From: Opitutia bacterium
GTDB taxonomy: Bacteria; Verrucomicrobiota; Verrucomicrobiia; Opitutales; Opitutaceae
Assembly: GCA_016217545.1 (NCBI GenBank)
Contig: JACRHT010000012.1
Coordinates: 248,001-312,000, forward strand
DNA: 64,000 nucleotides
Reading direction: 5' to 3'
Shown: piece after piece, positions 7,852-39,825 of the stretch
Layout of the letters: each line of letters begins with the position of its first letter
Position numbering within the stretch: position 1 is the stretch's first letter
Made by a program: the position numbers and the translations under genes
Notes under the pieces: model-generated
What the model was told of the DNA's origin: nothing
Seen by the model: only the letters and a program-made list of their open reading frames with translations
The model's database searches: none

Positions 7852-7870
7852 GTAACCTAATAGGTTACTC
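7850..7870. repeat. GTAACC-type palindrome, copy 3, overlapping the HTH gene stop
   Basis: 21 bases with perfect 9-base arms GAGTAACCT and AGGTTACTC around AAT. The first two bases are the last two of the HTH stop codon. Confidence 0.9.
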
Positions 7871-7907: not shown

Positions 7908-7942
7908 CGGATTCGTGTAACCTATTAGGTTACTCGAATCCG
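7908..7942. repeat. GTAACC-type palindrome, copy 4, extended to 35 bases
   Basis: The core GTAACCTATTAGGTTAC is flanked by CGGATTCG (7908-7915) and its perfect complement CGAATCCG (7935-7942), so arms of 16 bases carry a single T/T mismatch at 7916/7934. It lies 80 bases before the dihydrouridine synthase start. A further small palindrome GTTTCC/GGAAAC lies between copies 3 and 4 at 7880-7893. Confidence 0.9.
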
Positions 7943-9955: not shown

Positions 9956-12805
9956 TCAGAATTTTTTTGTGAGCTGGGCGTAGACGAAGCGGCCGCGGTT
10001 GCTGTGCGTCGTGACGTCATAGCTGTCGTTGAAGGCGCCCGCGGCGAAGGGCGCGGACTCGTCGGTGACGTTGGCGGCGCCGAGGCGGAGCGTGGTATCG
10101 GCCAGCCACTTTCTCCAACCAGCGCCACCGGTGAAATCGTGCTGCACCTGGACGTCGAGGGTGGTCCAAGGCTCGATGTAGCGGATGGCGTTGCCCTGAG
10201 TGAAGGCGGGGTTGTCCTGGAGTTTGCTGATGTGGTTGGCCGTGACGACCGCGGCCCAGGAGCCTTTTTCCCAGAGCAGCGAGAAGTAGCCTTTGTGGCG
10301 CGGGATGGAGCCGGGGGAGATGGCGTTCTGTTGGACGTCGATGAAGGTGCCGAGGAAGCTCTGCTTCGGAGCGCCCGGATTGGGCGTGAGCGTCCAGGTG
10401 AGCGCGGTGTTCCATTCGGCTTTGGTGGTGAACTTGCCCCAATCGCCGCGGGGCCAGACGTAGGTGACGGCCCACTCCACGCCGGTGGTCTCGCGCGCAG
10501 AGATGTTGAACTGGGTGGAGTTGATGGTGGTGACGCTGCCGGTGACGGGATCGCGCACGATGAGGTTGGCGAAGGGCGCGTTCGGGTTGATCGTGGCGGC
10601 GTTGCCGCGGACGAAGCCGGAGCCCTGGCCGGCGGCATTGACGTTGAGGATGAACTGCGAGCCCTCGCCGACGAGGCCGTTGATGGTGCCGTAGTAGTAG
10701 TCGACGGTCACGCTGAGGCCGTGGATCTTCTTCGGCGACCAGACGAAGCCGGCGGAGTAGGTGGTGGATTCCTCGGGGGAGAGCTGGGCGTTGCCGCCGG
10801 TGGTGATCTGCGTCTGGTTCGGGATGGCGAAGCCGAGAGGATCGACGAGCGAGGGGAACGAAGTGCCGGGCGCGCCGAAGAGCTGGCTGAGACTCGGCAG
10901 GCGGAAGCCGGTGCCCCAGGTGCCGCGAACGAGCAACTCGTCGGTGGGCTGCCATTGGAGGCCGAGCTTGGGATTGTGCGCGGTGAAGCTGCGGCCGATC
11001 TGGGCGCCGGTGGTGCCGTTCTGGAAGCCCTCGACGGTCTGGTAGTCGTAGCGGCCTTCGAGCTGGAGCTTGAGCGAGCGCACGAGGGGGATTTTCTGGT
11101 GCTCGCCCACGATGGGAACGTGCAGCGCGGCGAAGGCGCCGGTGCCGTAGGCGCGGGAGATGGAGGGGTTGGAGCCGTTCAGGCCGAGCAGGTCGCCGGT
11201 GAAGAAGATGGGCTCGGGAAGGTTGGCGAGGTCCACGCGATAGTAGTCGGCGCCGAAGCCGAGTTTCACGTCGCCGCTGGGGAGGGAAAAGGCGGAGCCG
11301 TTGGCGGAGAAATCGAAGCCGCGATTCTGGCTGTTGATATCGGTGCGGCCTTTGGCGGCGGATTCGGCGAGGGCCTTGCGGTTGTCGAAGGCGACTCCGG
11401 TCGGACCGACTCCGGCGACGTCGTCGAGCGCCCAGGGGTTGTAGGCACCGCTGAGGATGCGCTGCACGAGGGCGGCGCGGCTGGGGGCGCCGCTCTGGTC
11501 AACATCGCGGGCGAAGGCGTCGTAGATGTAGTTGAGGCTCCAGTTCCAATCCTGGCCGAAGTGGCCGTTGAAGCCGCCGTGGGCTTCGTAGGAGTCGCGG
11601 ATGTTGGTCTGGAGTCTGGGTCCGAGGGTGATGGTGCGGAAGGGCACGGTGCCGTTGGTGAGCGCGCCGGGCGAGGTGGCGTTGTCCGCGATGAAGAAGC
11701 CGACCGGGATGTGCGGGCTGAGGCGGGCGGCGGTGCGCAGCGCGGTGCCGGCGGAGCCGCCGGTGGGCATGGGCGAGGGCGCGAGACCGTTGAGGAACTC
11801 GTCGTGGGCGTAGAGCAGGTAGGCGTAGAATTCGACCTGCTCGTTGAAGAGCTTCTGGTTGAGGCGCGCGTAGAGGTTGCGGCGTTTCTGCTCGGGGATG
11901 GAGGGCGTGAAGCGGCGGAAATTCAGCATCTGGTTCGACGTGGCCGAGTTCGTGTCCATGGGGATGAAGTCGGCGGCGCTGAGGCCGATGGTCTTGCCGG
12001 GGGCGAGGACGAGGTCCTGCACGGGGGCGGTGGCGCTGCCGACACGGGCGGTGGCGCGACCGGAGAAGGAGGGGCTGCCGCCGTTGACGCCGCCGCGGAA
12101 ACGCTGGTCGGCCTGGTCGGAGGGCTCGCGATCGATGCCGTGGAGGGCGTTGCGCGAGTAGGATTCGACGGCGACGACGACGTTGGTCTTGCCGAGCGTG
12201 TAGCCGGCGATGGCGCTGGCACGAATGACGCCGGCGTCCTTGTCGGTCGTGTTGCCGTAGTAGAAGTCGGCTTTGGCGCCCTCGTAGCGGTCGGTGAGCA
12301 TGACGTTGAACACACCGGAGAGGGCGTCGGAACCGTAGATGGAGCCGGCACCGTCCTTCACGACCTCGATGCGCTTGATGGCGATCTGGGGGATGAGATT
12401 GAAGTTCTGGTAGCTCTGCGTCTTTTTGCCGTCGAGGAGAGTGAGGGTGCCGGCGAGGCCGCGGAGATTGACGCCGGAGGAGCCGGTGCCGCCGTTGGTG
12501 CGCTGCTCGGTGGCGACGGAGCCGGTGTAGCCGGGCAGGTGACGCACGACTTCGATGGGGGTGGCAGCACCGAGGCGGGCCATCTCGGCTGGCGCATAGA
12601 TGGTGACGGGGGAAAAGGTCTCGCCCTCGGCCGTGGGAATGGCGGAACCGGTGACGACGAATTTATCGAGCTTGAAGGTTTCTTCCTCGGGGGCGGAGTT
12701 GTTTTGGGCGAGGAGGAGCCCGGGAAGGGCGAGCAGGGCGGCGAGCGCGCGGGTCCAACGGCGCGGGCGATCCGCATGCGAGGTGCTGGTGGATTGAGGG
12801 ATCAT
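9956..12805 (-). CDS. TonB-dependent outer-membrane receptor 1 (tandem paralogue)
   Basis: 949-residue outer-membrane active transporter. A signal peptide (about 1-35, RALAALLALPGLLLAQN) is followed by a TonB-box-like FKLDKFVVTGSAIP, a plug domain with IEVVRHLPG, NLRGLAGTLTLLDGKK and KRIEVVKDGAGSIYGSDAL, and a 22-strand beta-barrel ending in VYAQLTKKF with the C-terminal Phe expected for BAM recognition. ATG 12805 is chosen because the signal peptide starts there; frame upstream to 12856 is non-conserved. The substrate is unknown. It closely matches the next receptor (13209-16178) in leader and upstream DNA. The barrel ends with AAGAFNDSYDVTTHSNRGRF, also shared with the paralogue. Confidence 0.95.
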   Translation of the reverse strand: MIPQSTSTSHADRPRRWTRALAALLALPGLLLAQNNSAPEEETFKLDKFVVTGSAIPTAEGETFSPVTIYAPAEMARLGAATPIEVVRHLPGYTGSVATEQRTNGGTGSSGVNLRGLAGTLTLLDGKKTQSYQNFNLIPQIAIKRIEVVKDGAGSIYGSDALSGVFNVMLTDRYEGAKADFYYGNTTDKDAGVIRASAIAGYTLGKTNVVVAVESYSRNALHGIDREPSDQADQRFRGGVNGGSPSFSGRATARVGSATAPVQDLVLAPGKTIGLSAADFIPMDTNSATSNQMLNFRRFTPSIPEQKRRNLYARLNQKLFNEQVEFYAYLLYAHDEFLNGLAPSPMPTGGSAGTALRTAARLSPHIPVGFFIADNATSPGALTNGTVPFRTITLGPRLQTNIRDSYEAHGGFNGHFGQDWNWSLNYIYDAFARDVDQSGAPSRAALVQRILSGAYNPWALDDVAGVGPTGVAFDNRKALAESAAKGRTDINSQNRGFDFSANGSAFSLPSGDVKLGFGADYYRVDLANLPEPIFFTGDLLGLNGSNPSISRAYGTGAFAALHVPIVGEHQKIPLVRSLKLQLEGRYDYQTVEGFQNGTTGAQIGRSFTAHNPKLGLQWQPTDELLVRGTWGTGFRLPSLSQLFGAPGTSFPSLVDPLGFAIPNQTQITTGGNAQLSPEESTTYSAGFVWSPKKIHGLSVTVDYYYGTINGLVGEGSQFILNVNAAGQGSGFVRGNAATINPNAPFANLIVRDPVTGSVTTINSTQFNISARETTGVEWAVTYVWPRGDWGKFTTKAEWNTALTWTLTPNPGAPKQSFLGTFIDVQQNAISPGSIPRHKGYFSLLWEKGSWAAVVTANHISKLQDNPAFTQGNAIRYIEPWTTLDVQVQHDFTGGAGWRKWLADTTLRLGAANVTDESAPFAAGAFNDSYDVTTHSNRGRFVYAQLTKKF

Positions 12806-12942
12806 GGGTGATCTTAGGTTTGTCTGGTGTGATGCGCGGCGCGGTCGCCGGCGCATCGGAGTCGCGCGAGCAGGCCGGAAGGGACGGGCGCGGCAAGGGA
12901 GCGGCGACGTCTTCCTAGTCGCGCGCGCCGAGCTTCTAGCCC
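12701..12942. repeat. Duplicated leader and upstream segment, copy 1
   Basis: About 240 bases covering the receptor 1 signal-peptide coding start and its upstream region. Read side by side it matches 16074-16315 with scattered substitutions and few indels, including the ATG context and the CTAG-containing direct repeats. The match ends sharply just after the CTTCTAGCC sequence. Confidence 0.85.
12910..12939 (-). promoter_or_regulatory. Candidate LytTR-type direct repeat upstream of receptor 1
   Basis: On the minus strand CTAGAAGCT, 12 bases, then CTAGGAAGA. Two similar 9-base units with a 12-base spacer is the arrangement known for LytTR regulators such as AgrA and ComE. It lies about 105-135 bases before the receptor start. 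The link to the LytTR regulator at 16562-17341 is inference. Confidence 0.4.
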
Positions 12943-13208: not shown

Positions 13209-16178
13209 TCAGAATTCCTTGCGGAGCTGGAGATACACGAAGCGCCCGATGTTATTGTGGGTGCGCGTGTCGTAGCTGTCGTTGAACGCGCCCGCGGCGA
13301 ATGGGGCGAGTTTGTCGAACACGTTCGTGGCGCCGAGGGTGACGGTCAGGCCTTTGAGCACGAGGTTGTCGCTCTTGAAGGCGTAGCTCGTCTGCATGTC
13401 CACGGTGTTGAACGAGCCGATGCGGCGGTAGCCGCCGACCTTGGGCTCGACCGAAGCGGGCGCGCTAAGGAAGGCTTGATAGATGGGATCGGTGAAGCGG
13501 TTGGCTCCGGCGTTGAAGAAGGCCTGCATCTTCGGGGTGAGCACGAAGAGCGGATCATCTTGGTAGGACTGGATGTAGTTGAACGTGACGTTGGTCGTCC
13601 AGTTGTGCCACTGCCAGTTGGTGGAGAAATTGCCTTTCCAGCGCGGAATCGAGCCGGGGGAGAGCGGGTCGCCGACGGTGCTGACGAACTTGCCGAGGTA
13701 GCTCTCGGTCGGGAGGCCGGGGCCGGCGTTCTGGTCGAACTTGAGGAACTGGTTGGCTGCGGCGGTGAACTTAAAGCGACCCCAGTTCTGCGCGTTGTAG
13801 GCGTAGGTGGCGGTGTATTCCATGCCCTGGACCTTGCGGGAGCCGATATTGAGGAAGTCGGACAGGACGGCGCCGCGCTGCGAGATACCGAAGGCGGAGG
13901 AGAACGAGCCGTTGCTGTTGAGGCCGCCGGCACCGTTGCGGCGGATCAGGCTGGCGAAGGGCGCATTCGGGTTGATGGTGGCGGCATTGCCGGGCACGAA
14001 GCCGGGCCCTTGGCCGGCGGCATTGGCTGCGAGGATGGCTCGGGCGTTGTTCGCCACGATGCCGGAGACGTCGATGGCGTAGAAGTCCGCCGAGAAGCTG
14101 AAGTTCTTCACGAGTCCCTTGGGCGTGCCAACCAGGCCGACAGAGAAGGCCTTGGAGGTGGCGGGCTGCAGGTCGGGATTCGCACGCACGACGACGGTCG
14201 TCTGGGCGCTGTAGGGGAAGCCGAGCGGGTCCACCAGCGTCGGGTTGTTCTGGGCGGGCGAACCGAAGGCAGAGTTCGGATTGGGAGCGAGGAAGCCCTT
14301 GCTCCAGCTGGCGCGCACGAGGTAATCGGCCGTTGGCGCCCAGTGCAGGTTCACGCTGGGGTTCACCTTCTTGTAGGTGCGGAAGCTGGTGCCGTTGCCG
14401 GCCTCCTGATCTTCGCGGCGGGCGATGGCGCCGAGCGAGAGGCTGTGGAGCCAATCGCGGCGGTTGCTGTCGCCGAAAATCGGAACCTTCACTTCGACAA
14501 ACTCCGACTTGCTGGTGAGCTGGTTGTAGCTGTCCGTGAGGGAATTCAGGCCGAGCGCGCTACCGGAGGCGTAGAGGTCGTCGTAGTCGCTGGTGTTCTT
14601 GTTGGTGTAGACCTCGTAGCCCGCGGCGATGCCGAGATCTCCCGCCGGCAGCTCCGCGAGCGAACCGGTGACGCGGAAATCGTAGAAGCGATTGCGCACG
14701 GGCGCGTAGAGACGGGCGTGGGTCTCGGCGAGCTTGAGCGCCGTGGCGTTGTCCCAAGCGTAGGTGGTGCCGCCGATGGTGGCGGTGCCCTTGGAAAAGG
14801 CGGAGGCGAAGGGATTGAAGCGCCCGGCCTGGATCTCGGCGTCGAGGATCGGGAGCGACGGCACGCCGGCGTCGGTCTGGACGTAGTCCTCGCGCTCGAC
14901 GGTCATCGCGGCTTCCCAAGACCACTTGCTGGTAATCGCGCCGCGCAGGCCGACCTGCCACCGGTAGTCGGTGTAAACCTGCTCGTTGGTGCGGTTGCCC
15001 AGCTCGACGGAACGGTAGCGGAAGAAGTCTCCGGCCGCCGCATCGAGGATCCCTTGATTGAAAGGGCCAAAGGTCGTGACGGCACCGGCGGCGGCGCCGG
15101 CCGGATCGGCGGAGAGCGCGAAGGGTGACGGGGCGAGGCCGTTCTCCGTGCGCAGGCGCGAGTAGAGGAAGCCGCCGAAGAGCTTCAGCTTGTCGCCCAT
15201 GATATCGTGCTCGATGTTGACCATGAAAGATTCGCGGGACTGGCCCGGAGCGGAGGGCGAGAATTGCCGGAAATTGAACAGCTGGTTCGAGCTGAAGGTA
15301 TTCGTGTCGAACGGAATGAAGTCCGCCGCCGTGGCCAGGCCTCCGGCGGGAAAATCCGGCCGCAACACGCGCGGCGTGCCGCCGCCGTTGATCGCGACCG
15401 CGCCGGCGAAGGTGGGCGAGCCTCCGTTGGTGCCGCCACGGACGCGGTTGTCCGACACGGCGCTGTTGGGGCGCTGGGAGGAGTAGATGGTGCGGTTCTT
15501 GAAGATCGAGCCGGTGGCGATGATGCTCGTCTTCTCCGTGGCAGCACCGGTGGCGAAGGAAACCTGATAGGTCTCACGGGAGCCGGGCGTGCGGGTGGCG
15601 CCGCCGAAGGTAGCGTTGAGCACCGAGCCGGTGTAGTTCTTCTTCAGGATCACGTTCACGGCGCCGCCGATGGCCGCGGAGCCGTAGATGACGCCCGCGC
15701 CATCGCGGAGCACCTCGATGCGCTCAACGGCCTCGATGGGAAGCAGCTGGATGTTGGCGAACTGGAGCGTGACGCGGCCGTTGATGAGCACGAGCGTCTG
15801 GCCGTTGCCGAGGCCGCGGAGGCTGACTGCGGTCGCGCCGGTGCCGCCGTTGGAGTCGTTCTCGTTCGAGCCTGGATTGCCGACGAAAGACGGCAAACTA
15901 CGGAGCGCTTGAATGGGCGTGAAGGCGCCGGTCGCGCGAATCTCGGCTTCGGTGAAGACGGCCACGGGGCCGACCGGTTCGGAGCTGGCCTGCGGGATGA
16001 AAGAACCGGTGACGACGAATTTATCGAGCTTGAGGGTCTCCTCTTTTTTGGCGGCTGAGTCGTCGCCGGAGGTGTTTTGAGCGAGGAGCAGTCCGGGGAG
16101 GGCGAGCAGGGCGGCGAGCGCGCCGGTCCAACGGCGCGGGCGATCCGCTTGCGGGGTGCTGGTGGATTGAGGGATCAT
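13209..16178 (-). CDS. TonB-dependent outer-membrane receptor 2 (tandem paralogue)
   Basis: 989-residue receptor. The signal peptide and TonB-box region (LKLDKFVVTGSFIP) are nearly those of receptor 1. The plug has VSLRGLGNGQTLVLINGR and VERIEVLRDGAGVIYGSAAIGG; the barrel ends with YLQLRKEF. ATG 16178 heads the conserved MIPQSTST leader; the open frame upstream to 16493 is non-conserved and crosses the regulatory region. Middle barrel regions differ strongly from receptor 1, so the two copies probably take different ligands. It has its own terminator and probably its own promoter. Confidence 0.95.
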   Translation of the reverse strand: MIPQSTSTPQADRPRRWTGALAALLALPGLLLAQNTSGDDSAAKKEETLKLDKFVVTGSFIPQASSEPVGPVAVFTEAEIRATGAFTPIQALRSLPSFVGNPGSNENDSNGGTGATAVSLRGLGNGQTLVLINGRVTLQFANIQLLPIEAVERIEVLRDGAGVIYGSAAIGGAVNVILKKNYTGSVLNATFGGATRTPGSRETYQVSFATGAATEKTSIIATGSIFKNRTIYSSQRPNSAVSDNRVRGGTNGGSPTFAGAVAINGGGTPRVLRPDFPAGGLATAADFIPFDTNTFSSNQLFNFRQFSPSAPGQSRESFMVNIEHDIMGDKLKLFGGFLYSRLRTENGLAPSPFALSADPAGAAAGAVTTFGPFNQGILDAAAGDFFRYRSVELGNRTNEQVYTDYRWQVGLRGAITSKWSWEAAMTVEREDYVQTDAGVPSLPILDAEIQAGRFNPFASAFSKGTATIGGTTYAWDNATALKLAETHARLYAPVRNRFYDFRVTGSLAELPAGDLGIAAGYEVYTNKNTSDYDDLYASGSALGLNSLTDSYNQLTSKSEFVEVKVPIFGDSNRRDWLHSLSLGAIARREDQEAGNGTSFRTYKKVNPSVNLHWAPTADYLVRASWSKGFLAPNPNSAFGSPAQNNPTLVDPLGFPYSAQTTVVVRANPDLQPATSKAFSVGLVGTPKGLVKNFSFSADFYAIDVSGIVANNARAILAANAAGQGPGFVPGNAATINPNAPFASLIRRNGAGGLNSNGSFSSAFGISQRGAVLSDFLNIGSRKVQGMEYTATYAYNAQNWGRFKFTAAANQFLKFDQNAGPGLPTESYLGKFVSTVGDPLSPGSIPRWKGNFSTNWQWHNWTTNVTFNYIQSYQDDPLFVLTPKMQAFFNAGANRFTDPIYQAFLSAPASVEPKVGGYRRIGSFNTVDMQTSYAFKSDNLVLKGLTVTLGATNVFDKLAPFAAGAFNDSYDTRTHNNIGRFVYLQLRKEF

Positions 16179-16315
16179 GGGTGATCTTGGGTTTGTCTGG
16201 TGTGATGCGTGGCGCGGCCGCCAGCGTATCGGAATCGCGCGAGCAGGACGAAAGGGGGGGGCGCGACAAGGGAGCGGCGACGTCTTCCTAGTCGCGCGCG
16301 CCAAGCTTCTAGCCT
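16074..16315. repeat. Duplicated leader and upstream segment, copy 2
   Basis: Partner of 12701-12942. It covers the receptor 2 leader codons and about 137 bases upstream. Sequence identity is high in both coding and non-coding parts, which points to duplication of gene plus promoter followed by divergence of the barrel. Confidence 0.85.
16283..16312 (-). promoter_or_regulatory. Candidate LytTR-type direct repeat upstream of receptor 2
   Basis: Minus strand CTAGAAGCT, 12-base spacer, CTAGGAAGA; identical half-sites to the copy at 12910-12939 with one change in the spacer. It is about 105-135 bases before the receptor 2 start. Because the two regions are duplicates, their agreement is not independent evidence. 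Confidence 0.4.
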
Positions 16316-16416
16316 GCGCCGGCCAGCCGGACGGCGTGGTTGAGCAGGCCGGGCAGACCGAGCAACGCCAAGGCGAGCCGCAGTCCCCGCCGCGCGGGCG
16401 TGTGGGTGTTGTGCAT
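16309..16416 (-). pseudogene. Remnant signal-peptide ORF of a TonB-receptor-like gene
   Basis: A 35-codon frame with ATG 16416 and TAG at 16311-16309. It starts MHNTHTPARRGLRLALALLG and continues with a hydrophobic leader, like the start of receptor 3 (MNHPHTSSRRALARAGALL). It stops just after the leader, inside the CTAG half-site upstream of receptor 2. Most likely it is the 5' relic of a receptor gene whose body was lost when receptor 2 was inserted or duplicated. A real leader peptide cannot be excluded. Confidence 0.5.
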
Positions 16417-16561
16417 GGGTTGCTGTGGGTGGGCACCTCGGCGTGGGCAGCCGGGGCGCGGCACCAGCAACGTGAGTCCAGCCGCGGCGGCAAAAGCGCG
16501 GCGACGCACGTCTAGCCGGATCGGGCGAACAACCAGCCGCCCGCCGCGAGACGGGTGCGGC

Positions 16562-18849: not shown

Positions 18850-21642
18850 TCAGAACTTGTAGGTCGCGTCGATGAAGAAGAAGCGTCCGAACGCGCCGTA
18901 GAGACCGGTGTCGGCCGGCGGATCGGTGAAGACGTTCGGATCGGTCGGCGGGTAGCGGTCGAGGATGTTGTTCACGCCGACCGTGACCTTGAGCCCGGCG
19001 AGGCGCGGCCACACGGCGGCGAGATCGACGCCGAATTGCGCGTCGAAGGAAACGTAGCCGGGAATGTGCGAGCCGTCGCCGGCGCTCGTGACGCCGCGAA
19101 TGTAGGTGTTCGCAAGCATGGCGTTGTAAGCGCCCTTCTGCCATGTGAGCGTTGTCCGTCCGTGCCACTTCGGGAGCGTGCCGAAGCCGTTGGTCGCGGA
19201 GTATTCCACGGGGTCGATGTCGGGCGAGGCGACGATCACGAAGCTCTTGAGGTAATTCCACGAGGTGGTCGCGCTCCACGCACCGAGCGTGTCGGTCCAG
19301 TCGTAGCGGACCATGACGTCGATGCCGCTTTGGTTTTGTTTGCCGATGTTCACGGCGAACTGATCGACGTAGACGTTCGATGGGTTCGGATGCAGCTGGC
19401 CGGGCGCGGTGACCTGCGTGCCGCCGAGCTGGCCGAAGTTGCCGAGGTGAACGTAGGGCGAGTAGATCGACGCGGCGCCGAACTGCTCAACGTCCTGGAT
19501 CATCACCGTCGTGGCGGCGAGCGTGCCGACGATGTCGGTTTCCTTGATGTTCACATAGTCGACGGAGAGGGAGAGACCCTTCACCGCCTTGGGCGAGTAG
19601 ACGAAACCGACGGTGTAGTTCTTCGAGCGCGAGGGCGAGAGGTTGGGATTCGAGCCGCCCTGTTGGTTGCCTTGGATGTTCACGAACGGACCGATGGGCT
19701 GGCCGGCGGAGTTGTAGGCGGTGAGCCCGGCGAGCGTCGGCGTGGCGCCGGAGTTGGTGGGACCGTAAAGGCCGTAGAGCGTCGGCGCGGCGAAGGACTT
19801 CGAGTAGGTCGAGCGGATCACGAACTCGTCGTTGAACGGCAACCAGCGCAGCGCGACCTTCGGCACGGTCGGCTTCTCCTCGCTCGACTTGTAGATCTCG
19901 TGACGGAACGCGACGTCGAGATCGGCGGTGTGCAGGCCCGGGAGATTGTTGCTCGGCTGCGTGAGGGGAATTTTCACCTCGGCGAACTGCGACGTCACGG
20001 AGCGCGTGGCGTCGAAGGGATTCAGCGTGACGCCGTTGTTCCACGCCGAGCCGCCGGTGGCGGGATCGATGATGCTGTTCTTGTCGGCGCGGGCGTTGAG
20101 CGCCTCGTGGCGGTAGCCGACGCCGAACGCAGTGTAGACGCTGCCGCCGGGCAGGTCGAAGAGCCGGCCGTTCACGCGGGCGTTGTAGGAGATCAGCTTG
20201 CTCTCGAAGAGGCCGAGCGAGTCGCCGAAGATGTTCGCTTCGGCGATTTTTGCCGCGTCCTGCTTGATCGCGGTGAGGTTGATGAGGCCGGAGGCGATGC
20301 CGGCTTGCAGCGCGGAATCGAGGATCTGGTTCGACGCGATCGAGTCCTGCTGCGCGCGGTTGAAGAGCGCATCGACGGTCCAGCCCCAGTCGGCGTTGAG
20401 CTTGCCGTTGAGCGCGAGCGTGCCGCGGATCGAGTGGCCGTCGGTGATGTAGACGCGGTTGCCGGCGTCGACGAAACGGTTGCGCACCTGCGCGCGGACG
20501 TCGGTGAACGGGATGCCGGGCAGGCCGGTGTTGCCGGCGGTGGAGTTGATGCGGAAGACGATCGGCTGCGGGTTGAGGTTATACTGGCTGCGCGTGCGCG
20601 CGTAGAGGATCGTGGTCTGCAGATCGAGGGCGTCGGAGAACTTGTGCTGCAACGCGAGCGTCGCGATCTGCTTGCTCAGCGCGGCGGAGAACGTCGGGCG
20701 CGACGACAGGTCGAAGCCGAGCGGCACGTCGTTGGCGCTGACGGGAACGTAGACACCTTGCGCGGCCCATTGCGCGAGGGTCTGCGCGGGACCGGCGGGC
20801 GCGGCGTTCAGGCCGGGCTTGAGTTTGTAGAAGTTGCCCGCCGCATCGTTGACGATGCCGGCGTAGCTCGCGGTGAGGAAGACCGGCGACGTGTAGTTGT
20901 AGTCGCGCTCGTAGAGCGGGTCGGTCTTCGTCCACTCGGCGGAGAGCGTGAGGCTGGTCTTGTCGGTCGCGGCGCCGCCGACGAGCCGCAGGGATCGGTC
21001 GCGGTAGTAGGCGCCGGTTTTGTCGGCTTTGGAGAAGCCGAAGTAGCCGCCGATCTCGAAGCCCTGGTAGTTCTTTTTCAGGATGATGTTGATCACGCCC
21101 GACACGGCGTCGGAGCCGTAGATGGCGGACGCGCCGTCGGTGAGGACTTCGATGCGCTCGATGGCGGAGACGGGCACGACGTTGAGGTCGACGAACTGGA
21201 AGCCGCCCGAGCTGGCGACGGGCGAGAAGGCCACGCGCATGCCGTCGATCAGCACGAGCGTCGCGGTGTTGCGCAACGCGAGCTGCGAGCCGCCGTTGGT
21301 GGCGCCGCCGTTGATGTTGCCGTTCTCGATGCCGATGTTGTTGCCGCCGACGATCTGCGGCACGGATTTGCGGAGGACGTCGAGGACGCTGGACTTGAGG
21401 CCGGACGCCTCGATGTCCTTGGCGGTGACGACGACGACGGGCGAGGCGTTCGCCTCGTCGGCCGCGGCGGGGATGTAGGAGCCAGTGACGACGTATTTCT
21501 CGAGTTTGACCGCTTCGTCGGCGGCGGCGCCGGTCGACGAGGGGGATTGGGCGGCGGCCGGGAGGCCGAGCAGGCAAGGCAGGACGAGCAGCGCGCCGGC
21601 GCGCGCCAGCGCCCGCCGCGAGGACGTGTGTGGGTGGTTCAT
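18850..21642 (-). CDS. TonB-dependent outer-membrane receptor 3
   Basis: 930 residues. Signal peptide about 1-31 (ending LPAAAQ), TonB-box-like VKLEKYVVTGSYIP, plug with VLDVLRKSVPQIVGG, RNTATLVLIDGMR and IERIEVLTDGASAIYGSDAVSG, and a beta-barrel ending FIDATYKF. It is of the same Oar-less class as receptors 1 and 2 but has a different leader and no shared upstream DNA. The substrate is unknown. It is followed by its own terminator and then by the LytS/LytTR genes on the same strand. Confidence 0.95.
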   Translation of the reverse strand: MNHPHTSSRRALARAGALLVLPCLLGLPAAAQSPSSTGAAADEAVKLEKYVVTGSYIPAAADEANASPVVVVTAKDIEASGLKSSVLDVLRKSVPQIVGGNNIGIENGNINGGATNGGSQLALRNTATLVLIDGMRVAFSPVASSGGFQFVDLNVVPVSAIERIEVLTDGASAIYGSDAVSGVINIILKKNYQGFEIGGYFGFSKADKTGAYYRDRSLRLVGGAATDKTSLTLSAEWTKTDPLYERDYNYTSPVFLTASYAGIVNDAAGNFYKLKPGLNAAPAGPAQTLAQWAAQGVYVPVSANDVPLGFDLSSRPTFSAALSKQIATLALQHKFSDALDLQTTILYARTRSQYNLNPQPIVFRINSTAGNTGLPGIPFTDVRAQVRNRFVDAGNRVYITDGHSIRGTLALNGKLNADWGWTVDALFNRAQQDSIASNQILDSALQAGIASGLINLTAIKQDAAKIAEANIFGDSLGLFESKLISYNARVNGRLFDLPGGSVYTAFGVGYRHEALNARADKNSIIDPATGGSAWNNGVTLNPFDATRSVTSQFAEVKIPLTQPSNNLPGLHTADLDVAFRHEIYKSSEEKPTVPKVALRWLPFNDEFVIRSTYSKSFAAPTLYGLYGPTNSGATPTLAGLTAYNSAGQPIGPFVNIQGNQQGGSNPNLSPSRSKNYTVGFVYSPKAVKGLSLSVDYVNIKETDIVGTLAATTVMIQDVEQFGAASIYSPYVHLGNFGQLGGTQVTAPGQLHPNPSNVYVDQFAVNIGKQNQSGIDVMVRYDWTDTLGAWSATTSWNYLKSFVIVASPDIDPVEYSATNGFGTLPKWHGRTTLTWQKGAYNAMLANTYIRGVTSAGDGSHIPGYVSFDAQFGVDLAAVWPRLAGLKVTVGVNNILDRYPPTDPNVFTDPPADTGLYGAFGRFFFIDATYKF

Positions 21643-25082: not shown

Positions 25083-25874
25083 TCAAGGCTGCGCTCGCGG
25101 CGCCGTTTTCAACGCCGCCGCCACCGCGCCCACCGCGATCTCGCGCGGCACGACCAGCCGCCAGCTCCCCTCCACCCGTCGGAACGCCAGCACCGCGTCC
25201 CGCGCCAGCCCGCCGCCGCGCTCCGTGCGCGTGCGCAACGCGACGTCGCCGTTGTTCAACGTCAGCGCCGCCACCGGCCCGATCGCGCTCAAATCCTGCG
25301 GCACCTGCACCGCGATGAGCGTCGCCAGCATGTTTTCCGGCGAACCGTAGCTCGCGCGCGCCTCGTCCGACAGCTGCGCGAACGCCGCCGCCAGCTCCTT
25401 CCGCCCCGCCGCGTCGATCGCCAGCAGCGTCGCGAGCTTTTCCGTCTCCCCCCGCGTCGCCGCCCACACGAAACTCTCCAGCGCCGCCTCCGGCGCCGCC
25501 GCACCCGCATCGCGCCAGTCCGCGCTCTTCACCATCGGCCCGCGGAGCGGCGGCAGGTTCTCCTTCGCGGGCGATTTCCCGGGCGCGGATGCGATCAACT
25601 CGCCGCTTTCGCTCGCGAGCGCCCGCTCGATTTTCGCGAGATCCTCCCGCGCTCGCAGCCATTCCTCCTGTTGCCGGCGCAGCTGCGCGAGCTCGTCCGC
25701 GGTCGCGGACGAACGCAGCGCCGGTGTCGCGCGCGACCGTGCGAGTTGCCGCGCGATGAGCCGGTCGCGTTCGGCGCGCAGCGCGACCGCACGCGAGTGC
25801 TGCCACATCCCCAGCGCGCCGAACACGCCGATGCTGCCAGCCAGGCAAAGCCACATGAATGCGCGCGGATTCAT
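25083..25874 (-). CDS. Membrane-anchored coiled-coil protein, partner of the sigma-TonB fusion
   Basis: 263 residues, unrecognised. One N-terminal membrane segment (about 6-24), an Arg/Glu-rich coiled coil (about 27-90) and a C-terminal domain (about 120-255) with APEAALESFVWAATRGETEKL and a final VLAFRRVEGSWRLVVPREI, which resembles small NTF2/SnoaL-like folds in layout only. It starts 4 bases after the stop of the sigma-TonB fusion and is surely cotranscribed. The topology (TM then coiled coil then periplasmic domain) mirrors that of the fusion protein, so the two may pair in the periplasm (inference). Confidence 0.75.
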   Translation of the reverse strand: MNPRAFMWLCLAGSIGVFGALGMWQHSRAVALRAERDRLIARQLARSRATPALRSSATADELAQLRRQQEEWLRAREDLAKIERALASESGELIASAPGKSPAKENLPPLRGPMVKSADWRDAGAAAPEAALESFVWAATRGETEKLATLLAIDAAGRKELAAAFAQLSDEARASYGSPENMLATLIAVQVPQDLSAIGPVAALTLNNGDVALRTRTERGGGLARDAVLAFRRVEGSWRLVVPREIAVGAVAAALKTAPRAQP

Positions 25875-25878
25875 CGCT

Positions 25879-27183
25879 TCAAAACCAGTCGTCGGTGTCG
25901 CGCTGCACCGTGAAGACGAGCGCCATCTCCGCCCGCGTGTTCACCGGCATGCCCGCCTTCTGGCCCGGCGCGAACTTCCACTCCGCCAACGCCGCCAGCG
26001 CCGGCTCGTCGAACGCGCCGTGCGTCGACGACAGCACCTTCGCATCCGCGACCGCCCCGTCGGACCCGATGACAAAACTCACCACGGCGTGCCCCGTGAT
26101 GCCGAACTCGAGCATCACCGCCGGATACGTCGGCGGCACCTGTTTCAGAGGACGCGGCTTCAAGTCCAGCTCCGCCAACGGCAGCACCGGACCGGCGGGC
26201 GCCGCCTTGCGCGGCCGCACCGGCACCGTCGCCGCGCGAGACGCCTGCCTTTTCTGCAGCTCGTCGAACCGCTCGCGCACGCGTGCCTGCAATCCCGGCA
26301 ACTCCGCGGCCGCCGCGCGCAACCGCTCCAGTTCGTCGCTTCCGGCCGGCGGCGCGTGCAGCCGCCGCTGCTCGGCCGCGACGTCGTCGGCCATCGTTCG
26401 CAGCTGCGCGACATCTTGCGCCAGCGCCGCGTTGGCGCGGTATTGCACCACGCCGGTCAACGCGCCGGCCGCCAACACCGCCGCGCCCACCGTCCACTGA
26501 AGTTTCGTCACAGCCATAAAAAATCCGCTCACTCCGATTGCCGCCGCCGGAGCGCCGGCCGCGATCGCGCCCGCGAGCCCGCTCGGCGCCGCGCCGACCG
26601 CATTCGCCGCCAATGCCGCGCCGAGCGCCGTCGCGCTGGAGCCGACACCGCGCCGCGCGAGTGCGGCATGCAGCTTGTCGAGCGCGCGCTCCACGCGCAT
26701 CCGCGCGCCGTTTTCGCCGATCCGCAACCGGGCACCGATCTCCGCGAAGCCGCGGTTTTCAAAAAACCGGAGCAAAACCGCCTCGCGATCCCGTTCCGCC
26801 AGATCCCGCATCGCGTCGTCGATGACGGGCCGCAGCACCGTCCAGTCGGCCGCCGGCTCGTCATTCCGCGTCAGCTCGTCCATCGCATGCGCCTCCTGCT
26901 CGCGCCATCGCCGGCGTTGCTCCCCGCGCACCGCCTTGGCCGCCGCGTAGCCCGCGCTCGTGTAGAGCCAGCCGCTGAGCGACTCGCGCCCGGCGAGCAC
27001 CGCGGCCTTGCGCGCGAGATCGGCGAACACTCCTTGCGCCACGTCGCGCGCGAGATGGACATCGCCGCCGACCTGCCGGAGCGCCGCCGAGTAAACCAGC
27101 GGCAGCCGCCGCGCGACCAACTCGGCGAATGCCGCCTGATCGGCGGACTGGGCATAACGGCGGAGCAGATCGGCATCTTCCAT
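25879..27183 (-). CDS. ECF sigma factor fused to a membrane segment and TonB C-terminal domain
   Basis: 434 residues. Sigma-70 region 2 covers about 5-75 (YAQSADQAAFAELVARRLPL, GDVHLARDVAQGVFADLA, SGWLYTSAGYAAAK) and region 4 about 112-180 (MRDLAERDREAVLLRFFENR, AEIGARLRIGENGARMRVER). A glycine/alanine-rich hydrophobic stretch (183-223) and a membrane helix (about 229-248) follow, then a coiled coil (250-315) and a full TonB C-terminal domain at 341-430: QVPPTYPAVMLEFGITGHAV, VLSSTHGAFDEPALAALAEW and KFAPGQKAGMPV. Sigma regions would be cytoplasmic, TonB-C periplasmic. GAGGAAAA precedes ATG 27183. How the sigma part is released or used at the membrane is unknown. Confidence 0.9.
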   Translation of the reverse strand: MEDADLLRRYAQSADQAAFAELVARRLPLVYSAALRQVGGDVHLARDVAQGVFADLARKAAVLAGRESLSGWLYTSAGYAAAKAVRGEQRRRWREQEAHAMDELTRNDEPAADWTVLRPVIDDAMRDLAERDREAVLLRFFENRGFAEIGARLRIGENGARMRVERALDKLHAALARRGVGSSATALGAALAANAVGAAPSGLAGAIAAGAPAAAIGVSGFFMAVTKLQWTVGAAVLAAGALTGVVQYRANAALAQDVAQLRTMADDVAAEQRRLHAPPAGSDELERLRAAAAELPGLQARVRERFDELQKRQASRAATVPVRPRKAAPAGPVLPLAELDLKPRPLKQVPPTYPAVMLEFGITGHAVVSFVIGSDGAVADAKVLSSTHGAFDEPALAALAEWKFAPGQKAGMPVNTRAEMALVFTVQRDTDDWF

Positions 27184-27262: not shown

Positions 27263-27283
27263 GAGTAACCTATTAGGTTACTC
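27263..27283. repeat. GTAACC-type palindrome, copy 5, in a divergent promoter region
   Basis: 21 bases with perfect 9-base arms GAGTAACCT and AGGTTACTC around ATT; the same sequence as copy 3 except for the central base order. It lies 80 bases upstream of the sigma-TonB fusion and 120 bases upstream of the kinase gene, about 19 kb from the other four copies. Confidence 0.9.
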
Positions 27284-35062: not shown

Positions 35063-35136
35063 GGTAGGGCGGGACCGCTGGGCCCGCCGGGAGCGTGTTG
35101 CCGCCTTCGCGGCGGGCCCAGCGGGACCGCCCTACC
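35063..35136. repeat. GGTAGG-type long inverted repeat, copy A
   Basis: Arms of 27 bases: GGTAGGGCGGGACCGCTGGG... at 35063-35089 and ...CAGCGGGACCGCCCTACC at 35110-35136, with two mismatches and a 20-base loop. The stop codon TAG of the phytase fusion (35134-35132) lies in the right arm. A related copy is at 56346-56419. Confidence 0.85.
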
Positions 35137-36802
35137 TTAAATCCGCGCCGGCTATCTGCTCCCAGCCGTAGAGATGGAACACTTGGCCGTTGGACATCGC
35201 GACGAAGAGGCCGTGGGGAAATTGCTCGCCGAGCGGTTGCGCGGTCACGTCGCTGCCGTCGCTTTCGATCGTGGCGACGTCGACGATCTTCACCACGCGG
35301 TGCTCGTGCGGATGGCCGGGCGCGCCCTCGCGCGGGAAGAGCCAGAACTTGTTCGCCTGCTGATCCGACACGAGCAAGTAGCCGGTGCCATCAGGGCGTT
35401 TCCAGATCGAGATGCCTTCGTGGTCGCCGGCGAATCCGCTCTTCGCAAAACACGCGAGCTCGCGGTCGGCGTCGGGCGCGTCGGAGTCGGCGGCGTATTT
35501 GCGGACGCCGAATTGCTCGTCGGAATAGTAGACGTAGCCGAGCTCGGCATCGACGGCGATGGCCTCGATCTCCTTCTTGCCGCTGTAGGCGCCGAACTGC
35601 CGCACGAGCGTCATCTTCACGTGGCCGGTGCCGTCGTCCTCCAGCCGGTATTGGCCGATGTAGCCTTGCGCGGGGCCCGACTTGCCGCCGACGAAAGCGA
35701 AGAGCGCGCCATCGCGCGGACGGCGATAGAGCGCGACGCCCATCGGAGCGCGGTTCGGGTCGCCGTCGAAGACCACGAGGTCGCCCTTATCGACGCAGAT
35801 CATCTCGGGCAGCGTGAACACGCGCAGGCGTTTCTCCTCGCGCTCGGTCGTGACCGCGATCGCGACGTCGCGGCCGCCGAGGCGAAAGCCCGTGGCGATG
35901 TCGACGTTGTTGGGTCGTTTCAAGCCGGGGACGGTGCGCACGATCTTGCCGTGCAGATCGAAGACGTAGAGCGCGCCGTCGGTATCCTTGTCGGTGCCGA
36001 CGATGAGGCTTTGGGCGGGATCTGCGGGATTGATCCAGATCGCGGGGTCGTCGGTGTCGTGCTTGACGGGCTCGGTGACGACGCGCGGCTGGAGCACGCC
36101 GGCCTTCCAACCGGGCAGCGCGGCAGCCGCCGGCGTGGCGGCGAGTTGCTTGGCCTCGGCGAGCGCGCGGGCGAAGTCGGCCTCGGCGGCGTCGTTCCAT
36201 TTCACGCGATCGCGCAGGAAGTCGGCCCAGCTGAACTCCTGGAAGAACACGCCTTTCAGTTCGGTGAACGCGCCGGCGTTCATCAGCGCCCAGGCGAGGC
36301 CGCGGCAGGGATCGAGTTGCATCTCTGCGAGCGTGGCGGGCAGCTGCGCGGGTGCGGCGGGCTGGCCGGCGGCGTCCTTCAGGTAGGCATAATTGCTCGC
36401 CGACATGCGCGCCCAAAATTCGGCGGGCGCGAGCGCGGACCAGTTGGCGAAGACGTGCCCGTAGACGGTCTTGTCGGCGTGCTTCGACTCGAGCAGCGCG
36501 CGGATCGTGTGATGACCGTCGGTCATGAACGGCACGCCGCCGGGTCCGATGACGACAGGCACGTCCTTGTCCTGCAGGTAGGCGGCGAGCGCGGCGGGGG
36601 TCATGGCGTCGATCTTCGCGCGCTTGAAAAGCACCTCGCGCCAGCCGAGCGCGAATTGCGTCGGGTGCAGCGCGCGCGCGTCGACGGTGAGTGCGTCGCC
36701 CGCCTGCATGTCGGCGCGGAACGGCGCATAGGTCGTCGCGGCGTGCGCGGCGGCGCCAATGCCCAACGCGACGAACAGGAGACGGAGAATGGTGATTTTC
36801 AT
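35132..36802 (-). CDS. ParB-like (ParBc_2) / beta-propeller phytase fusion, exported
   Basis: 556 residues. Signal peptide about 1-21 (LFVALGIGAAAHA). Residues 40-200 form a ParB-like/Srx-type domain of the PF08857 kind: LHPTQFALGWREVLFKRAKI, PVVIGPGGVPFMTDGHHTIR. From 248 on the protein is a 3-phytase/beta-propeller phytase: DTDDPAIWINPADPAQSLIV, KRPNNVDIATGF, GDPNRAPMGVALY, KEIEAIAVDAELGYVYYSDE and DHEGISIW (Ca2+-binding acidic loops). It should hydrolyse phytate or inositol phosphates in the periplasm. It follows TonB-dependent receptor 4 by 84 bases on the same strand. Confidence 0.9.
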   Translation of the reverse strand: MKITILRLLFVALGIGAAAHAATTYAPFRADMQAGDALTVDARALHPTQFALGWREVLFKRAKIDAMTPAALAAYLQDKDVPVVIGPGGVPFMTDGHHTIRALLESKHADKTVYGHVFANWSALAPAEFWARMSASNYAYLKDAAGQPAAPAQLPATLAEMQLDPCRGLAWALMNAGAFTELKGVFFQEFSWADFLRDRVKWNDAAEADFARALAEAKQLAATPAAAALPGWKAGVLQPRVVTEPVKHDTDDPAIWINPADPAQSLIVGTDKDTDGALYVFDLHGKIVRTVPGLKRPNNVDIATGFRLGGRDVAIAVTTEREEKRLRVFTLPEMICVDKGDLVVFDGDPNRAPMGVALYRRPRDGALFAFVGGKSGPAQGYIGQYRLEDDGTGHVKMTLVRQFGAYSGKKEIEAIAVDAELGYVYYSDEQFGVRKYAADSDAPDADRELACFAKSGFAGDHEGISIWKRPDGTGYLLVSDQQANKFWLFPREGAPGHPHEHRVVKIVDVATIESDGSDVTAQPLGEQFPHGLFVAMSNGQVFHLYGWEQIAGADLR

Positions 36803-36886: not shown

Positions 36887-39661
36887 TCAGAGCTTCCAGC
36901 GGACGCCGAAGTTCGCGCTCCAGCCGTATTCCTCGAACTGGCGGAACCGGGCGCGCGCCGACGTGAAGGCGACGCGGAACGGCTCGTTGGTGAGATTCAG
37001 AACCTCGCCGAACAGCTCCCAGTTGTGGTTCAGCCGGTAGCTGGCGTTGAGGTCCCACTGCTTGAAGTTGTCGATGTAGATGTCGTTCGCCGCGATGTCG
37101 CCGATCGCCTCGTCTTCGCGCAGGTGCGAGCTGCGGTAGTTGAACGACAGGCGCAGGAACAAGCCGTGCGCCTCGTAGCTGAGCGCGGCGTTGGCGTTGC
37201 GCGGCGACTGGCCGATGAACGGCGCCTTCTCGAACGTGTTCGTCGCGGTCCGCCAATAGGTCGCGCTGCTGTGCGTGAGCGTGTAGTTGGTGAGGAACGT
37301 CACGTTGCCGAGTTCGCCGGGCAGGAAATCGAGGCGGCGCGTGAAGGCGAACTCGAGCCCGCTGACGTCGCCGTCGTTGCCGTTCACGTAGGTCGTGAGC
37401 AGGTAGCCGGGATTCGCCGGATCGCCGTTGGGCACCGAGGTGCGATAGGTGAAGTTGGAGATTTTCTTGTAGAAACCGGCGAGCGAGACAACGCCGAGGC
37501 CCTTGAAGTAGTGCTCGGCCGAGGCGTCCCAGTTGACGGACTCGAGCGCCTTCAGGCTGGGATTGCTCTCGGTGACGGTCTTCGCGTCGTCGTTGACGGA
37601 GCGGATGAGCGCGCTCTCGGAAAATGCCGGGCGGGCGACGCTGTTCGTCCACGAGGCGCGCAGCACGGTCTGCTTGTCGAGGTCGTAGCGGACGTAGGCG
37701 CCGGGGAGAAAATTGTTGTAGCTGCGCTCGCGCGTCGCGCGCGTGAAGCTCGTGACGCCGCCGACGACGCGTTGCTCGTTGCCGCTGGCGGCGAACTCCG
37801 TGCGCTCGTAGCGCGCGCCGCCGGAGAGGTTGAGCGCGCCGTAGGTCACGCCGCCCATCGCGTAGCCGGCGAGCACATCCTCGTCGGAGGACCAATCCTC
37901 CTGCTCGCTCGACACGACGTCGCGCGTCTCGGTGAACGCGCCCTTGTTGTTCACGAACTGCTGCGTGAAGGCCTCGGCGTTGACGCGCGGGCCGCGGAAG
38001 AAGGCGTAGTCGCCCTCGCCCTGTGTCTCGGCGAGCGAAGCGAACGTGAAGGTCGCGGGCGCGGCGAAGTTCGACTGCTCGCGGTTCTGCGCCTTGGTCT
38101 TCTGGCGGAGCTGGGCGCCGAACTTCGCGAACGCGCGGTTGCCGGCGCCGGTGGCGAAATCACGGCGGGCGTTGAACGCGTAGTTCTGCTCGCGGTCGGA
38201 GCCCCACGCGGGCGCGGAGCGAAGGCGGTTGAGTTCATTGAACTGCGTCGGATCGCTGATATCGGTGCCGGCGGTCTGCGTGACGACCGGCGAGTAGAGG
38301 CCGGGAAACGCGTAGGTCCAGTTCGTGCCGCGAGCGCTCTTGCGGAAGATGACGGTGTCCTCGCGACGGTTTTCGTTGCCGCGGCTGAAGGCGGCGCGGC
38401 CGTCGAGGCGCCAGTCGGCGACGGTCTTCTCAAAACCGGCCGAATACGACGTGAGGTCCTGCTGCTTTTCGCGGTTGCGGAGCTGTTTGTTTTCGCGGCG
38501 GACGCCGGTGAAGGACGCGGAAGTTTCGTTCGTCACGACGGCGCTCGACGCCTCGGAAAACGGGATCGTCGTCACGTAGCGATTCTCGCGATCGGTGAAA
38601 TACGAGTAGAGCCCGCGCAGGTAGAAGATCGTCGACGGATCGGGGCGGAACTCGAGGCCGGCGTTGGCGCCGTAGCGCGTGCGGGTGATCTCGTATTCGC
38701 GGTAATTGATGTCGGGGAGCGCGAGCGCGGTGTTGCCCGACGGAACAGTCCAGTTGCCGGAAGTCTCGATGTTGTCGGAGCCGAAGCGGCGCTCCTGCCA
38801 GGTGGGCGAAAAGATGAAGCCGAGTTTGCCGTCGTTGAGGATGTCGGAGTAGGTGCCGTTGAACTTGCTGCTCAGGCGCTCGCGGAGGTTGTTCCACTGA
38901 CCCTGCGCGACGAGTTGCGCCTGACGGCCATCCGCGTCGAACGGGCTGCGCGTTTTCAGATTCACGCGACCGCCGAGGCCGTCGATGTCGAGGTCGGGGC
39001 GCGGGACCTTCGTCACCTCGAGCGCACCGAGCGCGTCGGACGGAATGACGTCGAGCGGCACGGTCCGCGCGCCGCGATCGGGCGAGGTCATCGCGACACC
39101 GTTGAGTTGCATGCCATTCAAGTCGGGCCGGATGCCGCGCACGACGAGGAAGCGGCCTTCGCCCTGGTCGCGGTAGAGCGCGACACCGGGGATGCGCTGC
39201 GCGGACTCCGCGGCGTTCTGATCGGGAAAACGGCCGATCTCGTCCGCGGCGACGACGTTCGTGAGCGTCTCGGCGGCGCGCTGCTCGTTCAGCGAGCGCG
39301 CGGTGCCGACGGTCGAGCCGGTGATGACGAACTGCGAAAGCTTCACCACGTCGCGATTGAACACGGGATCGAGCCGCGTCGTGCCCGCGGCAGCCACTTC
39401 GATCGAAAGCTGGAGCGGCGCATAGCCGACGTAGTTGATCTCGACGAGCTGCTGGCCGGCCGGCACGCCGGGCAGCGTGAACTCACCGGTGGTTTCGGAA
39501 TAGGTCTCGACCCCACCGGCGGTGACGCGAGCGCCGCCGAGGGCGAGCTTCGTGTAGCCGTCGGTGACGCGACCGGAAATCGTGCCGGCATGCAGGCCGA
39601 CAAGCGCTGCGCAGGCGAGGCAGAGAACGCTGAGGAGGCGAAGAAGGTGACGTGAGATCAT
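36887..39661 (-). CDS. TonB-dependent outer-membrane receptor 4 (with N-terminal CarboxypepD-like domain)
   Basis: 924 residues. Signal peptide about 1-25. A carboxypeptidase-regulatory-like beta domain (26-110; GTISGRVTDGYTKLALGGAR, TTGEFTLPGVPAGQQLVEI) precedes the TonB-box-like LSQFVITGST and the plug (IGRFPDQNAAESAQRIPGV, LDIDGLGGRVNLKT). The barrel ends in NFGVRWKL. This is the TonB-receptor subtype of the TIGR01782-like kind (IGRFPD motif). ATG 39661 starts the signal peptide. Position just before the phytase gene suggests uptake of inositol phosphates or their breakdown products. Confidence 0.95.
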   Translation of the reverse strand: MISRHLLRLLSVLCLACAALVGLHAGTISGRVTDGYTKLALGGARVTAGGVETYSETTGEFTLPGVPAGQQLVEINYVGYAPLQLSIEVAAAGTTRLDPVFNRDVVKLSQFVITGSTVGTARSLNEQRAAETLTNVVAADEIGRFPDQNAAESAQRIPGVALYRDQGEGRFLVVRGIRPDLNGMQLNGVAMTSPDRGARTVPLDVIPSDALGALEVTKVPRPDLDIDGLGGRVNLKTRSPFDADGRQAQLVAQGQWNNLRERLSSKFNGTYSDILNDGKLGFIFSPTWQERRFGSDNIETSGNWTVPSGNTALALPDINYREYEITRTRYGANAGLEFRPDPSTIFYLRGLYSYFTDRENRYVTTIPFSEASSAVVTNETSASFTGVRRENKQLRNREKQQDLTSYSAGFEKTVADWRLDGRAAFSRGNENRREDTVIFRKSARGTNWTYAFPGLYSPVVTQTAGTDISDPTQFNELNRLRSAPAWGSDREQNYAFNARRDFATGAGNRAFAKFGAQLRQKTKAQNREQSNFAAPATFTFASLAETQGEGDYAFFRGPRVNAEAFTQQFVNNKGAFTETRDVVSSEQEDWSSDEDVLAGYAMGGVTYGALNLSGGARYERTEFAASGNEQRVVGGVTSFTRATRERSYNNFLPGAYVRYDLDKQTVLRASWTNSVARPAFSESALIRSVNDDAKTVTESNPSLKALESVNWDASAEHYFKGLGVVSLAGFYKKISNFTYRTSVPNGDPANPGYLLTTYVNGNDGDVSGLEFAFTRRLDFLPGELGNVTFLTNYTLTHSSATYWRTATNTFEKAPFIGQSPRNANAALSYEAHGLFLRLSFNYRSSHLREDEAIGDIAANDIYIDNFKQWDLNASYRLNHNWELFGEVLNLTNEPFRVAFTSARARFRQFEEYGWSANFGVRWKL

Positions 39662-39825
39662 GGCGTGCGAGAGCGAGGTCGCGTGCACCCGAGCGGTCGC
39701 ACCCAGCGCGGTCAACGGGCGACCGGTCGCGTTGCCGAGATGTTACCGGCGCGACACATCGCCGTCACAAAACGCGCCGAAAACGCGGATTTGCGCCCCG
39801 CGCACGCAGCCGCTCTGCTCCCGCC

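Follow-up and report, generated by a model that had tools for sequence, protein, structure and literature searches.

How might a sigma factor that is joined in one chain to a membrane helix and to the C-terminal domain of TonB sense the envelope and reach a promoter? The question is raised by a gene within the window, the 64,000-nucleotide stretch of DNA analysed here, which a first-pass annotation had described as encoding sigma regions 2 and 4, a membrane helix, a coiled coil and a complete TonB_C domain in a single polypeptide. We found that this description holds. The gene is translated without a stop into one chain, and the open reading frame, Pfam, NCBIfam and AlphaFold agree on its content (Table 1). 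The domain search that the annotation had named, for both sigma regions and TonB_C on the same chain, returned every one of these above the Pfam gathering cut-offs. The NCBIfam profiles for sigma70-ECF (TIGR02937, 60.8 bits) and tonB_Cterm (TIGR01352, 44.6 bits) also scored above their cut-offs. With regions 2 and 4 in one chain according to Pfam, TIGR02937 and a fold match to sigmaE, the fusion has the domain content of an ECF (group 4) sigma factor; against TIGR02989, the profile of a Rhodopirellula/Verrucomicrobium sigma family, it scored 40.1 bits, below the curated cut-off of 124.55. The annotation's reading of a protein that connects envelope and promoter directly is plausible.

Table 1. 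Features of the fusion gene and of the partner gene downstream of it (window positions)
Feature	Position	Strand	Basis and remarks
Fusion gene, 434 aa	25879-27183	-	ECF sigma, membrane helix, coiled coil, TonB_C and WF tail; single ORF, Pfam, AlphaFold, Foldseek
Sigma region 2, aa 22-91	26911-27120	-	PF04542 (Sigma70_r2), 27.2 bits; Pfam cut-off 24
Sigma region 4, aa 121-171	26671-26823	-	PF04545/PF08281 (Sigma70_r4/r4_2), 33.9 and 32.3 bits
Conserved linker after region 4, with Pro200, aa 182-204	26572-26640	-	P200 invariant in the 57 family members of alignment A2
Predicted membrane helix, aa 228-247	26443-26502	-	Hydropathy; inside model helix 228-276
Coiled-coil stalk, aa 250-319	26227-26436	-	Model helices 228-276 and 283-319; homologous to the partner stalk
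TonB_C domain, aa 350-425	25909-26136	-	PF03544, 56.3 bits, E 4.6e-15; fold match 6i97_D
C-terminal Trp-Phe, aa 433-434	25882-25887	-	-WF ending
Partner gene, 263 aa	25083-25874	-	4 nt downstream of the fusion; membrane helix, coiled coil, predicted NTF2-like domain
Partner membrane helix and coiled coil, aa 1-95	25590-25874	-	Profile-profile match to the sigma stalk
Partner NTF2-like domain (predicted), aa 126-243	25146-25499	-	AlphaFold pLDDT >90 over most; VIA-align fold match

An AlphaFold model of the fusion, built on an alignment of 31 sequences, had a mean pLDDT of 82 and a pTM of 0.37, so the relative placement of its domains is unreliable. The model comprises two helical sigma domains, a continuous helix (residues 228-276), a second helix (283-319) and a TonB_C domain (333-424); pLDDT is low in part of the linker that follows region 4, and the last four residues are disordered. 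Foldseek matched the model to Escherichia coli sigmaE (1or7, 6jbq) and to TonB C-terminal domains, the best of which was the FoxA-bound domain 6i97_D (TM-score 0.91 on the target, rmsd 1.4). The cores of both sigma regions and of TonB_C are intact and conserved among the fusions, with the PxYP/G/W residues of the TonB_C core invariant or almost invariant. By hydropathy there is a membrane segment close to residue 228, preceded by a weaker stretch rich in Ala and Gly (residues 183-222). If the weaker stretch spanned the membrane, TonB_C would be cytoplasmic; the model gives it no confident helix and has one confident membrane helix only.

The architecture recurs in other genomes. After pooling and deduplication, we counted 43 distinct full-length fusions with the same domain order in Opitutaceae and related Verrucomicrobia. 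A comparison of the window's genome with 56 relatives found it at 88% identity in G007, at 69% in G006 and at 39-50% in other genera. It is present in several single-contig genomes (G015, G016, G025 and G032) and in Opitutaceae bacterium EW11 (L168), whose genome bears no MAG label, and a contig scan added many further fusions, labelled almost all as Opitutaceae, Opitutia, Opitutae or Verrucomicrobia MAGs. Across 388 genomes of the phylum, scored on four candidates per genome and so giving a lower bound, matches that extended to the TonB_C end at E <1e-50 came, among the matches listed, only from the window's own family. The annotation had called for a survey of homologues and had raised the prospects of a frameshift or assembly error and of an architecture missing from all relatives, both of which this recurrence excludes. 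An artefact of any kind, be it two genes wrongly joined or a chain with a degenerate sigma domain, is extremely improbable, given so many distinct fusions, several of them from single-contig genomes, and sigma regions that exceed the Pfam cut-offs and match sigmaE structures.

Two features of the surrounding DNA were recorded in their own right. The palindrome GTAACCTANTAGGTTAC lies at window positions 7852-7868, 7917-7933 and 27265-27281, the last of these upstream of the fusion. We considered it as an operator of the sigma gene and rejected this, because it is a REP-like repeat found genome-wide: the window's genome holds about 51 copies and two congeners 32-39, many copies are paired about 45-67 bp apart, and between G000 and G007 the outer bases show symmetrical differences. 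Elsewhere in the window, positions 35132-36802 encode one chain in which a ParB-like nuclease domain is joined to a phytase domain.

Directly downstream of the fusion lies a gene for a second anchored protein, which we call the partner. A gene of this type occupies the same place in 42 of the 43 fusion loci, and its product usually ends in an NTF2-like domain. Partners lie within 160 nt of 41/43 fusions and of 18/90 other sigma paralogues (p 1e-17, uncorrected for relatedness); the 42nd, at L047, follows a gap of 307 nt, and L053 is the sole fusion locus at which none was detected. The anchor and coil of the partner are homologous to those of the sigma protein (99 columns, probability 99.1, E 5.5e-19; reversed-profile control, 1.7). 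At about ten loci the partner consists of anchor and coil alone (about 95-112 residues), which marks the coil as its constant part. On the strength of the stalk homology and the gene adjacency, we read the partner as a sigma-less paralogue whose coil most likely mediates pairing with the sigma protein. Its folded domain matched no Pfam family. The AlphaFold model of the partner is confident over most of residues 110-250, and VIA-align placed it on the NTF2-like chain 3k7c_A (Z 9.7 over 102 residues) and, at lower Z, on many other NTF2-like chains; Foldseek matches were weak (E 4e-3 or worse). As modelled, the C-terminal domain is NTF2-like at the level of fold. For the partner at L165 an ExbD-like domain was suggested by eye alone, and Pfam gave no match. 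The notion that sigma paralogues bearing an NTF2-like domain themselves do without an NTF2-type partner is unsupported, with no association (p 1.0) in data from a detector that missed partners.

Small TonB_C-like proteins were also seen around these genes. One at L044:6311-6880, downstream of the partner, shows weak resemblance to TonB_C and begins with a lipobox-like sequence, and TonB_C-like reading frames of similar size lie near fusions at L143, L147, L150, L158, L162, L163, L173 and L185. Separately, G000:C12:682851-685135 holds two reading frames with several tandem TonB_C domains, with like matches in other genomes of the family.

The half of the fusion that comprises sigma and anchor places it in a wider family. 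Alignment A2 has 57 members, every one with both sigma regions; the distal part matches TonB_C in 13, ExbD in 3, NfeD in 2, SLBB in 1 and DUF4878 in 1, the rest being mostly without a Pfam match. At further loci the distal part is Poly_export plus SLBB or is TPR-like, and on 15 sigma paralogues we detected an NTF2-like domain. Mapped onto a tree built from the sigma part, TonB_C requires seven changes, at least three of them forced by well-supported branches, so the distal domain was swapped more than once; a single origin of the sigma-TonB_C fusion was rejected on the same counts. TonB_C has been gained or lost repeatedly, and TonB_C, ExbD, SLBB/Poly_export, NTF2-like, NfeD and TPR-like domains are interchangeable on the one sigma-anchor base. 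Among the paralogues, those ending in SLBB are encoded at L145:3384-4883 (which also has Poly_export), L050:11219-12505 and L186:2446-3624, so that domains of polysaccharide-export channels are found here on putatively tethered sigma factors. Others end in an ExbD-like periplasmic domain (L055:2626-3837, L060:2884-4101 and L065:2667-3872, the last with a match below the Pfam cut-off).

The annotation had also pointed to four TonB-dependent receptors within 16 kb of the fusion. Domain matches confirm them (9956-12856, 13209-16493, 18850-21642 and 36887-39715), but the weight placed on this neighbourhood was too great. The window's genome has 70 Plug domains, and a home-made Plug profile found a receptor in the examined flanks of 5/47 fusion loci and of 3/69 other sigma-paralogue loci; the neighbourhood therefore carries little weight, and we rejected a conserved receptor linkage. 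None of the four window receptors gave an STN match, so the adjacent STN-type receptor of a FecIR-type system is lacking at the window fusion, and neither the fusion nor the partner matched FecR. Nor can the fusion be said to replace FecIR, since 12 FecR domains, together with STN-type receptors, are encoded elsewhere in that genome. Of the five fusion loci with a receptor, four were scanned for STN and one has it: at L051:8624-11356 in G032, the receptor is divergent from the fusion gene and 60 nt from it, the sole such arrangement confirmed. The partner, the family of interchangeable domains and the -WF tail, none of which the annotation contained, tell more about mechanism than the receptors do.

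The TonB_C domain may not contact receptors at all. It could be a structural domain, or one that binds peptidoglycan or another part of the envelope, so that the protein would monitor the state of the envelope, a reading compatible with proteolytic release and one that we regard as a serious possibility, if short of an even chance. It would fit the lack of conserved receptor linkage, the lack of an SxxxH motif in the anchor and of a Pro-rich spacer, the placing of ExbD and polysaccharide-export domains at the same position in relatives, and the 23-36 TonB_C matches per genome in these genomes, many in tandem repeats. It fits less well with a fold closest to a receptor-bound domain, with the near-invariance of the PxYP/G/W core and with the STN-type receptor beside the G032 fusion.

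The extreme C-terminus offered a second clue. The -WF ending is found on 25/43 fusions, 0/44 stand-alone TonB_C proteins and 4/93 other sigma paralogues (Fisher, 1e-10 and 5e-12 for the two comparisons, uncorrected for relatedness), after a non-conserved linker of about 4-27 residues. Among the 396 predicted genes in the loci checked, 11 encode proteins that end in -WF, all of this sigma family (0/385 others). When TonB-type fusions with a readable partner were divided by their ending, the partner was NTF2-type in 23/23 with -WF and in 6/17 without (p 5e-6, uncorrected). The four other -WF sigmas and the fusion at L047 likewise have an NTF2-type partner, and no -WF sigma among those with readable partners has a partner of another type. 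On well-supported branches, tail and NTF2 partner change together in about three independent pairs and oppositely in none; with relatedness considered, a sign test gives p 0.06 at best (median 0.25), from too few pairs to reach 0.05. The six TonB-type fusions with an NTF2 partner but no -WF indicate that the tail is not required. We take docking of -WF into the NTF2-like domain of the partner as a lead, one noticed while exploring the data and not preset. Instead, a PDZ-type site-1 protease (Prc or DegS-like) might recognise the ending as a tag, which we consider rather doubtful. Its position beyond a non-conserved tail, its disorder in the model and the recognition of C-termini by Prc (PMC5411451) would suit such a tag; yet a general tag would not predict a tail confined, among readable partners, to sigmas with an NTF2-like partner, and 18/43 fusions lack it.

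We think it somewhat probable that the fusion is an ECF sigma factor tethered to the membrane and serving as its own transmembrane receptor, held by its partner and freed by membrane proteolysis as in IutY of Pseudomonas putida. With the sigma domains in the cytoplasm and one helix as anchor in the inner membrane, the coiled coil would carry TonB_C into the periplasm. This predicted topology rests on the single confident membrane helix and on the kinds of distal domain: most of the recognisable swapped ones (TonB_C, ExbD, SLBB and Poly_export) are extracytoplasmic, which supports a periplasmic C-terminus. The partner, in which an NTF2-like domain replaces sigma and TonB_C on a homologous anchor and coil, would most likely lie alongside, and the -WF tail, where present, would most likely dock into it. 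A ligand bound by TonB_C or by the partner would change the complex; the periplasmic part would be trimmed, and an RseP-type site-2 cut at the membrane would free the sigma part to join RNA polymerase. RseP (240 bits) has a gene in the window's genome, as do five S41 C-terminal proteases; their presence proves nothing specific because, to our knowledge, both are near-universal in bacteria. More tentatively, the family may form a modular class in Verrucomicrobia, of single-chain sigma receptors with swappable periplasmic domains, in which the NTF2-like domain of the partner grips Trp-Phe and release of the tail frees the sigma part.

Alternatively, the fusion might work uncut in the membrane, as ToxR and CadC do, recruiting RNA polymerase there while the partner and TonB_C set its conformation or oligomeric state. 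A tether could be provided by the roughly 50 residues that separate region 4 from the membrane helix, and a regulatory hinge by the conserved Pro200 linker. We nevertheless judge this unlikely, since entry into the polymerase core, which a sigma factor has to achieve, would be harder from a fixed anchor, and since IutY, the known single-chain sigma-membrane protein with data, needs release (PMC5411451). If the fusion does act as a sigma receptor, envelope sensing and promoter choice would reside in one polypeptide, and domains of the Ton and export machineries would have been reused as sensor heads of sigma factors. With a shared base and differing heads, the family would then offer ready comparisons of how tethered sigma factors are activated.

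The annotation had contrasted the fusion with known pathways, in which sigma factor, anti-sigma factor and TonB are separate proteins. The fusion is indeed one chain, but single-chain proteins have a precedent in IutY (ECF243), a sigma/anti-sigma hybrid activated by Prc and RseP (PMC5411451, PMC9249621). Like IutY, the fusion has, by prediction, a cytoplasmic ECF sigma, a single membrane helix and a periplasmic domain; unlike it, the fusion has a coiled coil and TonB_C where IutY has a FecR-like part, and it has an adjacent second anchored protein with a homologous stalk, none being mentioned for IutY in the available parts of those papers. No description of a sigma-TonB_C fusion was found in the literature searched, which left much ECF work, including the 2021 reclassification, outside it. 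ECF48, ECF52 and ECF53 (for example SCO4117 of Streptomyces coelicolor) resemble the fusion in that the sigma factor has C-terminal membrane and extracytoplasmic extensions, and other sigma factors are thought to be released by proteolysis (PMC8999054). Those groups are actinobacterial and have a zinc-finger anti-sigma and, in ECF52, a carbohydrate-binding domain, none of which Pfam detected in the fusion. With FecI-FecR-FecA the fusion shares the tie between an ECF sigma and the periplasmic side, and possibly TonB-dependent receptors; there, however, sigma factor, regulator and TonB are separate, and FecR and the STN domain of the receptor are needed. In TonB energy transducers, SxxxH in the membrane anchor serves coupling to ExbB/ExbD. 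The fusion has the same TonB_C core and fold (PF03544, 6i97_D), but its anchor region has this motif in 0/43 cases, and in place of the Pro-rich spacer it has a modelled helical coil (228-319), with sigma domains in front. The SnoaL_2 domain of ECF41 sigma factors has an NTF2-like fold. It is fused to the sigma factor itself in ECF41 (PMC3426412); the system described here likewise seems to hold an NTF2-like domain within its regulatory unit, but behind a membrane anchor and as part of the partner and of certain paralogues.
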